Shown: positions 9,408 to 11,125 of the stretch, in pieces
How positions within the stretch are numbered: position 1 is the first letter of the stretch
Layout: every line of letters begins with the position of its first letter
Made by a program: the position numbers and the translations under genes
NCBI GenBank assembly: GCA_947037995.1
Contig: CAMQUV010000010.1
Span: 1-11,731 of the forward strand
DNA: 11,731 nucleotides
Direction of reading: 5' to 3'
From: an uncultured Rikenellaceae bacterium
Lineage (GTDB): Bacteria; Bacteroidota; Bacteroidia; Bacteroidales; Rikenellaceae
Notes under the pieces: model-generated
The model's input: the letters and a program-made list of their open reading frames with translations, nothing else
Told to the model about the DNA's origin: nothing
The model's database searches: none

Positions 9408-9470
9408 AAAAAAAGCACCATACTAGTTTATTACATAAAAAGGTGTTTAGTAATAAACTAGTAAGGTGCT
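9408..9470 (-). terminator. Long hairpin terminator
   Basis: The arms 9414-9433 and 9451-9470 are inverted repeats of 20 bases with one A/A mismatch (9420/9464) and a 17-nt loop. On the minus strand the stem runs straight into seven T residues (9408-9414), the form of a Rho-independent terminator. It insulates the SDR operon promoter from transcription arriving from the right, either as a backup to the terminator at 9714-9744 or as the 3' end of an unseen small transcript. Confidence 0.75.
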
Positions 9471-9713
9471 AGGAATTTAGGCTGACCTGCATACATTTGA
9501 GCTATTGACGGGGTTTGAATCCCTCGATTTCGCCTTGCAAAGGATGTGGTTGCTGTCAAGTTTAAACTAATCGTCTATCCTTAATCCCTGTAAAAAAAGG
9601 TTTTTGTTGGTGGGATTGTCGAAAATTGATTAGGGATAACAACTTGTGTGTCATTTAGTTATATGCAGTTCTATCTACTGGTTTAATAAATTTGTTTTTT
9701 GGGTAATATGAAC

Positions 9714-9744
9714 AAAAAAGAGCACCACTTAACCATGGTGCTCT
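9714..9744 (-). terminator. Rho-independent terminator of the lipoprotein gene
   Basis: AGAGCACCA (9719-9727) pairs perfectly with TGGTGCTCT (9736-9744), with an 8-nt loop. On the minus strand the stem is followed by a run of T (complement of 9714-9719). It lies 110 bp after the lipoprotein stop codon. Confidence 0.85.
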
Positions 9745-9853: not shown

Positions 9854-10570
9854 CTATTTGTACTCTATAGTTTGTGTGCTAGTCAATTTCCTCTTTTGAG
9901 TCTGGTCATATGTTACGTATGTCTGCATTTTTGTAACATATCCATCTTCATCAAACTCATATTCATATTCAATCTTTTCAGAACTACTTTTCTTACTTGT
10001 AGGTAGATTTTTATTTTTTGCTCCAAAGTAACCAAAGTTAAATAATATGTTATCAGGAATATTCTCTGCAAAATAATGAATCCCAATAATTTGATTCTCC
10101 ATTGTAGAGTATGTATAACTACGAATATAATCGCCCTCTCCTTGTGTTATAATATTCCCATTTTTCCAGGTATATGTAAAAGGCACTCCATCGCCATTAG
10201 AGTAATTAAGTAATTCGTTTTTGGCACTATAAGTATAAACACCATCGTAATCTCCTGTTGCGTGTGTTATAATGCCTTTGTTTAAATGATATGTCGTTAC
10301 ATTTGAATATGAGCCGGAAGTATAGGTCTCTGTAATAACATTATCATCATAGTTGTAGTTGTATTCCTCATCCTCACTGCCGTACCTTGATTTTACAACA
10401 CGTCCTTTCTTGTCATATTCAAAAAAAAGAGTTGAGACAGAATTAAACTCATGTGTAGTTGTAGTAATATTACTAACCTGTTTCTCTTGTGGATATTCGT
10501 CATCGTTTTTTGAACACGACACGAACACTAGTAGGCTTAAAGCCACCATTAAAAATTGTTTTTTTTTCAT
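9854..10570 (-). CDS. Lipoprotein with YD-like repeats, likely surface-exposed
   Basis: A 238-residue lipoprotein of unknown function. A signal peptide with three Lys and a hydrophobic core ends at Cys19 (VFVSC), the predicted lipidation site. The residues after it (SKNDDE) resemble the acidic lipoprotein export signal that sends Bacteroidota lipoproteins to the cell surface. The mature part is built of short Tyr/Gly-rich beta-hairpin units, such as FFEYDKKGRVVKSRYG (49-64), YTYSAKNELLNY (112-123) and YEYEFDEDGYVTKMQTY (202-218). This is the pattern of YD/DUF4595-type Bacteroidetes lipoproteins; the family assignment is from memory of the pattern and uncertain. The start is ATG at 10568-10570. 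A roughly 270-nt structured leader precedes it, and a strong terminator follows. The gene is visibly more AT-rich than the cyd and ALDH genes. Confidence 0.88.
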   Translation of the reverse strand: MKKKQFLMVALSLLVFVSCSKNDDEYPQEKQVSNITTTTHEFNSVSTLFFEYDKKGRVVKSRYGSEDEEYNYNYDDNVITETYTSGSYSNVTTYHLNKGIITHATGDYDGVYTYSAKNELLNYSNGDGVPFTYTWKNGNIITQGEGDYIRSYTYSTMENQIIGIHYFAENIPDNILFNFGYFGAKNKNLPTSKKSSSEKIEYEYEFDEDGYVTKMQTYVTYDQTQKRKLTSTQTIEYK

Positions 10571-10621
10571 AGTAAAATAAGTTTTTGTATGCCTTATGTT
10601 CCTACTGGGGCGGGTTTTGTA

Positions 10622-10841
10622 TAAAAAGAAGAAAGCGTGGAACTGCTAACAATATTTTTAGATATTAGGTTCTGGTATGGACCTTGAAGATAAAAATAAG
10701 CAACAGTCCACGCTTATACCGTAAAGTATATAACGTGAATGAGGTCGGCTTATTCTCTCTTCAATAAATGTACCAGATTTAATATCGAGAATAATGCTAA
10801 ACGCTTTCGTGTTCAGATATGTTTGTCCTATCGCTAGGACT
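10622..10841 (-). ncRNA. Candidate structured leader RNA / attenuator
   Basis: Unassigned family. Read on the minus strand, the RNA would begin about 4 nt after a -7 box. P1 is GTCCTA-GCGA-TAGGAC (10840-10825), perfect, with a GNRA loop. P2 is 10816-10797, eight pairs with one A/C mismatch and one G/U and a GAAA loop. P3 is TTATTCTC (10794-10787) with GAGAATAA (10757-10750). TCTGGTA in the P3 loop (10777-10771) can pair with TACCAGA at 10677-10671, a pseudoknot. P4 is CACGTTATA (10737-10729) with TATAA-g-CGTG (10718-10709). A 12-bp helix, AAGCGTGGACTG (10715-10704) with its partner at 10645-10633 plus one bulged base, overlaps P4 and is followed by a TC-rich run ending in T5, as in a terminator. 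The number of nested, loop-specific helices argues for a real RNA; conservation is untested. It could act in cis on the lipoprotein gene or be a free-standing RNA. Confidence 0.5.
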
Positions 10842-10844
10842 CCA

Positions 10845-10852
10845 CAAAGGTA
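10845..10852 (-). promoter_or_regulatory. -7 promoter element of the leader RNA
   Basis: The minus strand reads TACCTTTG, an exact TAnnTTTG. The predicted start near 10841 is one base before hairpin P1. The only TTTG upstream (10868-10871) is 15 bp away rather than 20, so the -33 half is non-standard. A second exact -7 box, TATCTTTG, lies further upstream at 10965-10972, also without a well-placed -33 box. Confidence 0.5.
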
Positions 10853-11125
10853 GAAATAAATCTTGAACAAAAAAGCGAACTTCCATTTTTTGACTGTTGC
10901 TATTTGTGTTTTGTGCAATAAAACAAGTGTGATTCACCGTTAAATCCTTGTGTTTATTACACTACAAAGATAGGTTTATATTACTAAATTATGCTATTGT
11001 GTTAGAATTATGTTTTTCATATCTTTAGTGCGTGCTGGCTTGTTCTTTGCGGAATCCGTGCGAATCAAAGCCTCTATTAAGGATGCTTTTTATTTACGGT
11101 TTAGATTGTTGAGATGTTTAAAAAG
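10853..11125. other. Non-coding stretch between LRR gene and leader RNA
   Basis: No gene is supported here. It contains the 3' UTR of the LRR gene, with no clear hairpin-plus-T terminator, the TATCTTTG box at 10965-10972, and AT-rich sequence. An open frame crossing 10658-10918 on the minus strand begins only at TTG, lacks any ATG, and coincides with the structured leader, so I do not treat it as a gene. Confidence 0.5.

Follow-up and report, generated by a model that had tools for sequence, protein, structure and literature searches.

The preQ1 and SAM-II translational riboswitches form a pseudoknot near the start codon, and second-messenger riboswitches are present in multiple copies and act on many targets. 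In the CopA–CopT antisense complex, two hairpins kiss through their loops and are further joined by two reciprocal helices, which gives four-way junctions. The 6S RNA of Bacteroidota and Bacteroidales-1 are promoter-proximal structured RNAs, comparable in size to the RNA considered here, and DUF805b RNA (RF02914) is filed as cis-regulatory by Rfam. The names of 6S RNA and Bacteroidales-1 (RF01685, RF01693) appear in the accessible part of PMC2864571. The accessible part of PMC9723704 places matches of Flavo-1 (RF01705) near 5' regions and describes Rfp11, Rfp13, Rfp15, and Rfp18 of Flavobacterium psychrophilum as conserved, structured, independent sRNAs, and it reports that two metalloprotease mRNAs require Rfp18 to reach their normal levels.

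We analyzed an 11,731-nt stretch of a contig from an uncultured Rikenellaceae bacterium (hereafter, the window), in which positions 10622–10841 hold one copy of a dispersed RNA family of ~190 nt. Like Flavo-1, this RNA is structured and dispersed in Bacteroidota, but Flavo-1 had no match at E 0.05 even in 20 loci from other families of the class. Unlike 6S RNA and Bacteroidales-1, it lacks an Rfam match, occurs as many differing copies before genes, and is predicted to fold as a cloverleaf with zipped arms. These arms would be joined by a kiss and two reciprocal helices, as in CopA–CopT, although within one RNA rather than between two. The putative output helix adjoins the start codon, as in the preQ1 and SAM-II riboswitches, but the body is far larger, the downstream genes have no shared pathway, and no ligand is suggested because these genes share no function. 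In being multi-copy and many-target, the family resembles the second-messenger riboswitches. The cis-regulatory DUF805b RNA is also comparable, but it is a 35-nt motif that lies outside the core and is missing from the window. We consider it probable, from comparison of homologs, that the RNA at 10622–10841 is a cis-acting, promoter-proximal 5' leader that makes the expression of the downstream gene conditional.

Position and fold of the window copy

The minus strand of this region (220 nt) folded at -68.6 kcal/mol in RNAfold, compared with -37.3 ± 4.1 kcal/mol in 200 dinucleotide shuffles (z = -7.6), none of which folded as well. In a longer segment of 281 nt, z was -6.2 for the minus strand and -3.7 for the plus strand. 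The first-pass annotation of this DNA had described a box followed by hairpins on the minus strand, and this arrangement is present: the box TACCTTTG is followed, four bases 3', by the perfect 6-bp hairpin with a GCGA loop that had been reported (Table 1). The GAAA-loop hairpin of the same annotation (TGAACAC-GAAA-GCGTTTAG) is also there, but is rivaled by the covarying closing helix GAAAGCGT/ACGCTTTC. Its 12-bp terminator-like helix did not hold up: the 3' strand pairs over a long range and is then followed by the U-rich tract, and a scan of 10622–10640 found no intrinsic terminator (a short local GC-rich hairpin directly before the tract). The GNRA hairpins and local terminator that it had emphasized are not the features conserved in the family, and its bounds enclosed a real element but were too narrow, with element A lying upstream and strand D and the start codon downstream. 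Each helix of the family has a complementary counterpart in the window when read by eye. The window contains no tRNA or tmRNA.

Table 1. Features of the RNA locus and its flanks in the window
Feature	Position	Strand	Remarks
Element A GCAACAGTC	10892–10900	-	5' of promoter; common to many homologs; perfect 9-nt complement of B (GACTGTTGC)
Promoter -7 box TACCTTTG, Bacteroidota type TAnnTTTG	10845–10852	-	Counted in copies and control windows
5' hairpin GTCCTA-GCGA-TAGGAC	10825–10840	-	Variable or missing among homologs
Core RNA	10629–10815	-	Covariance model R1, 138.5 bits; window itself among the 71 sequences of the model
Closing helix P0, 5' strand GAAAGCGT	10801–10808	-	Partner ACGCTTTC 10638–10631; covaries in family
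Arm Pa, 5' strand TTATTCTC	10787–10794	-	Partner GAGAATAA 10757–10750
Inter-arm strand V1 GATATTA	10780–10786	-	Partner V2 10667–10661; z 29 and 25 (61- and 40-sequence sets)
Kissing loop 1 CUGGUA	10771–10776	-	Partner UACCAG 10677–10672; z 19.7 over 101 rows
Inter-arm strand V3 TTGAAGA	10758–10764	-	Partner V4 10690–10684; z about 20 and 21 (two sets)
Apical hairpin H6 CACGTTATATAC...GTATAAGCGTG	10709–10737	-	All-pairs covariation scan
Strand B GCGTGGACTGTTGC	10700–10713	-	Alternative partners: H6 5' strand, C, A
Arm Pc TATTTTTA...TAAAAATA	10653–10698	-	Holds V4, arm 2 (AGGT/ACCT), loop 2, V2
Strand C GTTCCACGC	10635–10643	-	Partners B, P0 and, for its left part, D
U-rich tract TTTCTTCTTTTTA, 3' of C	10622–10634	-	T count after CACGC across copies
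Strand D GGAAC	10598–10602	-	Partner GTTCC of C (10643–10639); 27 nt before ATG
Downstream gene (238 aa)	9854–10570	-	Lipoprotein-like N-terminus by eye; start codon 10570; no Pfam match

Homologs and their distribution

Blastn searches over 61 genomes, including that of the window, gave matches in 20, several of which were multi-copy; the weak matches L020, L023, and L028 lack the motifs and are not true copies. A pattern scan of named genomes yielded at least 118 stretches, of which 113 were taken as real copies, whereas L031, L038, L066, L096, and L133 are chance pattern matches in which the covariance model R1 finds nothing. The hosts of true copies, among the matches listed, were Alistipes, Rikenella, Bacteroides fragilis, B. 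faecis, Dysgonomonas, Muribaculaceae, Prevotellaceae, and Taibaiella; the copy in Taibaiella sp. KBW10 (L101; 126 bits) lies outside the Bacteroidales. Cultured strains with copies include Bacteroides fragilis S82 (L055, L080) and Rikenella microfusus DSM 15922 (L040). Model R1 was built from alignment A1, for which 103 loci with enough flank, the window included, were reduced to 81 by redundancy removal and to 71 rows after ten of extreme length were dropped.

At E 0.001, R1 matched 22 of 41 genomes drawn from the window's genus and family and from further families of the order. With a cut-off of E 1e-5, it matched 60 of 198 genomes of the order and 22 of 296 genomes of the phylum. Because of their stricter filters, these scans may overlook weak copies; the genome of the window is included in all these counts, and the other 21 genomes of the phylum scan belong to the same class but another order. 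In the genus of the window, one of the three other genomes was matched. Two relatives of 30 and 40 contigs carried 9 and 10 copies, weak matches counted, and a genome of about 700 contigs carried 19, a less certain number because its matches often lie near contig ends. Besides the window copy, the window's own genome holds a weak match and a copy truncated at the end of a contig. Copies within a single genome differed widely in score (166 to 43 bits in G022). A further alignment (A3) drew on 99 chosen sources and left out seven of a group of 40 loci.

A full copy (137 bits) was found in a plasmid record of Parabacteroides distasonis (NZ_OY725834.1, positions 5886–6079 of L192), where its neighbors are a response regulator on one side and a helix-turn-helix protein on the other; the same record carries proS. 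Neither viral contigs, searched with one pattern, nor phages, searched with one query, yielded a copy. Tandem arrangements were also observed: L178 (1243–2541) contains two leader–gene units with genes alike by eye, and in L179 (248–633) and L180 (2000–2381), two cores about 200 nt apart precede a single gene.

None of the at least 54 cores compared with Rfam 15 matched a family. Searches at the gathering score covered the window, 18 loci (17 of them true copies), and 17 further loci; in E-value mode, the 20 other-family loci gave nothing at E 0.05, and L040, compared a second time under looser conditions, gave nothing at E 1. A relaxed search of the window region returned three matches at E up to 5, all far below the cut-offs. 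DUF805b RNA was detected at the gathering score in the 3' flank of 12 homologs, between the core and the start codon, and at a different position in L104. We found no description of the RNA in the open literature, supplements excluded, or in the accessible parts of PMC8040213, PMC10994844, PMC2864571, and PMC9723704; an earlier listing is possible, and the candidate tables of PMC8040213 are one place where it could stand.

Covariation and architecture

Covariation was assessed in two sets, consisting of 61 pattern-derived sequences and 40 model-derived sequences (the other-genome set, which includes L187 from the window's own genus). Because the latter set was found with R1, only helices outside the 17 pairs of that model are free of bias in it. 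RNAalifold recovered these 17 pairs from the MAFFT alignment A1, a low yield that we take to be caused by misaligned variable stems. In the pairing test, the score of the true helix was compared with the scores after strand swaps between sequences, with statistics that ignore kinship, and an all-pairs scan of 3570 pairs of segments was run separately for each set.

Together with the inter-arm helices V1:V2 and V3:V4 (Table 1), the loop–loop helix UCUGGUAA/UUACCAGA covaried (z 8 and 14 in the two sets), as did B:C (12 and 6), the arm bases Pa (7 and 8) and Pc (9 and 6.5), arm 1 (8 and 6), arm 2 (3.4 and 5.5), and the apical hairpin H6 (9 and 4). The last helices in the list were P1 (6 and 5.5), Pb (4 and 4.5), and the closing helix P0 (4.5 and 4.9), values that are modest for a scan of 3570 pairs, and the listed pairs include a few that are absent from the fold model, such as TATGGCG with GCTTTCT (4.8 in both sets). 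Negative-control pairs scored near zero (h3a:V2, 1.3; V1:V3, 2.2; a5:b3, 0.2; h6a:P0b, 1.6) or below it (V4:V2, -5.3; P0a:s2, -3.3), and the outer strands tested whole (1:4) gave z 2.4.

Over the 62–63 pairs of the fold, counted with and without B:C, covariation was higher than in any of 500 shuffles, and compensatory changes exceeded both shuffled and slid controls, again with statistics that ignore kinship. Specifically, for 53 of 62 pairs one or more sequences carried a change at both positions, double-change cells numbered 719 compared with 281 ± 16 in shuffles, and standard pairs filled 83.3% of paired cells compared with 74.1%. The homologs vary in length, most of the core is variable helix, and what is conserved is the paired bases. 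The two outcomes that the first-pass annotation had named as speaking against an RNA, a lack of compensatory changes and conservation as a protein frame, were not what we observed; its proposal of an undescribed Bacteroidota ncRNA or leader is supported by these changes and by the lack of an Rfam 15 match.

Comparison of the homologs shows the predicted fold to be a cloverleaf of P0 and P1, followed by Pa, Pb, and Pc. Arms Pa and Pc are linked by V1:V2 and V3:V4, with V1 and V3 lying in Pa and their partners in Pc, and the two loops kiss. All helices would coexist in a single molecule; P0, H6, and B:C have a few bases in common. The single long rod predicted by RNAfold is only partly right and was rejected as the full fold, because the flanks of the loop helix did not covary across the rod (a5:b3 and a3:b5, z 0.2 each). 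Inside the arms these flanks did covary, with z values of 10.6 and 6.2 in 101 rows (1.7 for arm 2 in the pattern-derived set alone). A simple attenuator with two alternative hairpin sets was likewise rejected: after strand splitting, most pairings fit one cloverleaf, and overlaps were left at B and C.

Promoter box, flanking pairings, and U-rich tract

The promoter box TAnnTTTG preceded 73 of 80 copies, compared with 1.3% of 301 control windows; it was present in 22 of the 40 copies of the other-genome set and missing in 18. Farther upstream, a loose search for the element-A motif, GCAACAG complementary to B, found CAAYAG in 74 of 103 loci; by a stricter definition, 51 of 80 copies had GCAAYAG at the distance expected. 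TTTG stood just 5' of GCAAYAG in 28 of these 51, compared with 9% of control windows. At the 3' end, at least seven T in the 10 nt after CACGC were found in 74 of the 86 scoreable copies (of 101). In a subgroup comprising L050, L097, and L143, C is followed by CTTGAACCGG in place of the U-rich tract, and L050 and L143 have no ORF within 330 nt.

An unguided scan of the flanks recovered the C:D pairing in both sets (z 10.5 and 5.8). The B:C pairing was weak in a first swap test (22.0 vs 21.2 ± 0.4), and other segments gave z 8.9 and 10.8. The putative A:B pairing is weaker than the others: in the subgroup having A, the swap test gave 24.8 compared with 23.4 ± 0.25, the unguided scan gave z 4.4 among over a thousand pairs of segments, and the other-genome set gave no covariation signal. 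The perfect 9-nt complement in the window is suggestive only.

Downstream and upstream genes

An ATG-initiated ORF of at least 60 aa started 10–75 nt past the core in 43 of 60 copies, compared with 25% of random same-strand windows, and in 30 of the 40 copies of the other-genome set, compared with 21%. When both sets were pooled, 73 of 100 copies had an ORF start within 75 nt of the core. The ATG lay 45–60 nt from the core in 33 of the 43 and 20 of the 30 ORF-bearing copies. The family as a whole shows the arrangement expected of a leader, with a same-strand gene at a short, constant distance and its own promoter; half of the 20 other-family loci do not.

Protein scans covered 80 of 99 ORFs in one collection (A2, the longest nearby ORF, which is the second gene at some loci) and 60 of 104 in another (A4). 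The downstream genes in A2 were diverse: BACON domains were found in five and BspA-type leucine-rich repeats in four, and OmpA, WG-repeat, DUF6140, and many single families each occurred in fewer. A hydrophobic N-terminus was present in 43 of 85 downstream proteins and, by a crude rule, a lipobox-like motif in 21 of 85. Some leaders were linked to the same gene family across records, judged by eye and with blastn. A link to defense genes was considered with PADLOC, but the matches were scattered and unconvincing. Among 60 genes in second or later position, 5 matched uracil-DNA glycosylase, as did 3 of the 80 ORFs of the A2 scan, L067 being a named example.

Nine chosen pairs of loci were compared for gene exchange, and four of them (L068/L145, L046/L124, L046/L083, and L083/L091) have differing first genes between similar flanks. 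In these four, the upstream flank and leader are 88–99% identical, the identity is lost no more than about 10 nt from the start codon, and 80–99% identity returns past the first gene. In L068/L145, for example, one matching stretch spans -834 to +80, the ATG is at +88, and a second matching stretch begins at +372/+345. In L046/L124, rapid divergence instead of exchange is possible, because the two small proteins look related by eye. The match of L044/L094 ends 56 nt past the start codon and that of L080/L125 about 20 nt before it, neither with a clear return nearby, and the remaining three pairs are alike throughout. An IS1595-type transposase lies upstream of the leader in L046 and L082, suggesting that some of the apparent exchange occurs within transposons. 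Upstream ORFs that resemble these transposases by eye were seen in L067, L083, L093, and L117, whereas most of the upstream ORFs listed, L101 not being among them, are not transposase-like by eye.

Several arrangements recurred among these loci. In L068 (3213–3966), the first gene belongs to DUF6140 (E 1.6e-8) and the second matches Tubulin/FtsZ GTPase; in L145, the first gene behind the leader is a 45-aa ORF with no Pfam match. In L067 (3252–4318), L041, L046, L083, L091, L116, L124, and L144, the leader is followed by a small, variable DUF6140-like ORF and then by a second ORF that is alike by eye, a 561-aa ORF taking the place of the small one in L083 and L144.

Copies in other families of the class

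The core was kept in all 20 loci from other families of the class, and the promoter box in 18. An ORF of at least 45 aa lay within 140 nt in ten of them and was missing in the other ten. In one family, nine of 11 loci lacked an ORF within 140 nt, yet retained the promoter box, the fold, and the U-rich tract, and there the RNA looks free-standing. The C:D score across the 20 loci was weakly above the swap control (16.0 vs 14.5 ± 0.5; highest of 300 swaps, 16.15). From their description in the accessible part of PMC9723704, the free-standing form may correspond to a published Flavobacterium sRNA and could be one of Rfp11, Rfp13, Rfp15, and Rfp18; these are described there as independent sRNAs, unlike the leader form.

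Interpretation

Homology, fold, promoter box, spacing, and C:D covariation form the basis of the putative leader, and from them we infer transcription of the window copy, switching, and a direction of control. Because many Bacteroidota carry the RNA, often several times per genome and usually just before accessory genes, it probably controls such genes. On the mRNA, the leader would consist of a closing stem and a four-way cloverleaf, with a kiss between the loops and two reciprocal helices holding the side arms together. Its apical strand B would form a pseudoknot with strand C on the 3' side, and C would also pair with D shortly before the ATG. Strand C would be the output strand: since its covarying partners P0, B, and D overlap in part, a signal that stabilizes or opens the body would shift C between them and alter access to the start codon. 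Candidates for this input are a metabolite, a protein, the ribosome, or the choice of promoter. The state of C may also change read-through, because the U-rich tract follows it. Element A, which some members of the family have, would be transcribed only when initiation occurs farther upstream than the main promoter, and it could bias B.

The same strand, the short spacing, the promoter box, the helices found in both sets, and C:D argue for a leader, as do loci with similar flanks that keep the leader while the first ORF differs. Against it stand the ten other-family loci with no near ORF, the weak C:D signal there, and the copies of the other-genome set that lack the box. A rival reading is a primarily free-standing ncRNA that ends at the U-rich tract after C, with read-through into the next gene being incidental or an attenuator. 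The T-rich stretch after C in most scored copies and the family of nearly ORF-free loci favor such an RNA, but the ATG spacing exceeds the control in two sets, the conserved C:D pairing sits past the U-rich tract, and the scan found no local terminator hairpin at this place in the window; we regard this reading as fairly unlikely. Spread of a transposon-borne leader and promoter with passenger genes, as a mobile cassette, would account for the IS1595-type transposases, the alike upstream ORFs, and the differing first genes between similar flanks; it is improbable given that most listed upstream ORFs do not resemble transposases, that copies of the same genome differ widely in score, and that the matches included one plasmid record and no phage or viral contig.

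The size of the RNA and the number of its pseudoknots lie within the range of self-cleaving ribozymes, but no Rfam ribozyme family matches the cores compared and the core is mostly variable helix, making a ribozyme very improbable. That the element is a chance or DNA-level inverted repeat with no RNA function is scarcely credible: AT-rich DNA does yield some stable folds, as the plus strand illustrates, but none of 500 shuffles reached the covariation of the 62–63 pairs, and the promoter box lies on the RNA strand.

A broader form of the leader reading is conceivable but doubtful, namely, a class-wide Bacteroidota RNA switch with a natural double-crossover fold, formed by the two zipped hairpin arms, that would read one global signal and set the translation of many unlinked accessory genes, including genes exchanged cleanly behind the leader. 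If true, it would constitute an overlooked layer of control over the accessory genes of gut and environmental Bacteroidota, exerted by a large pseudoknotted RNA that is widespread in the sampled genomes of the order and has no Rfam 15 match among the cores compared. The same core, a putative leader in one lineage and apparently a free RNA in another, would also offer a means of studying shifts in the way a regulatory RNA is used.

Other features of the window

Positions 3–36, at the start of the contig, are what we take to be Illumina TruSeq adapter sequence, and because this sequence opens the contig, a MATE-like ORF (14–1222, by eye) ends in the adapter-derived EIGRAHV. About 110 nt past the lipoprotein-like gene, at 9719–9744, a terminator-like hairpin (AGAGCACC...GGTGCTCT) is followed by a T-run. 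A long, near-perfect inverted repeat at 9410–9475 (CACCTTACTAGTTTATTAC...GTAATAAACTAGTATGGTG), followed by seven T, lies upstream of an SDR gene, as judged by eye.
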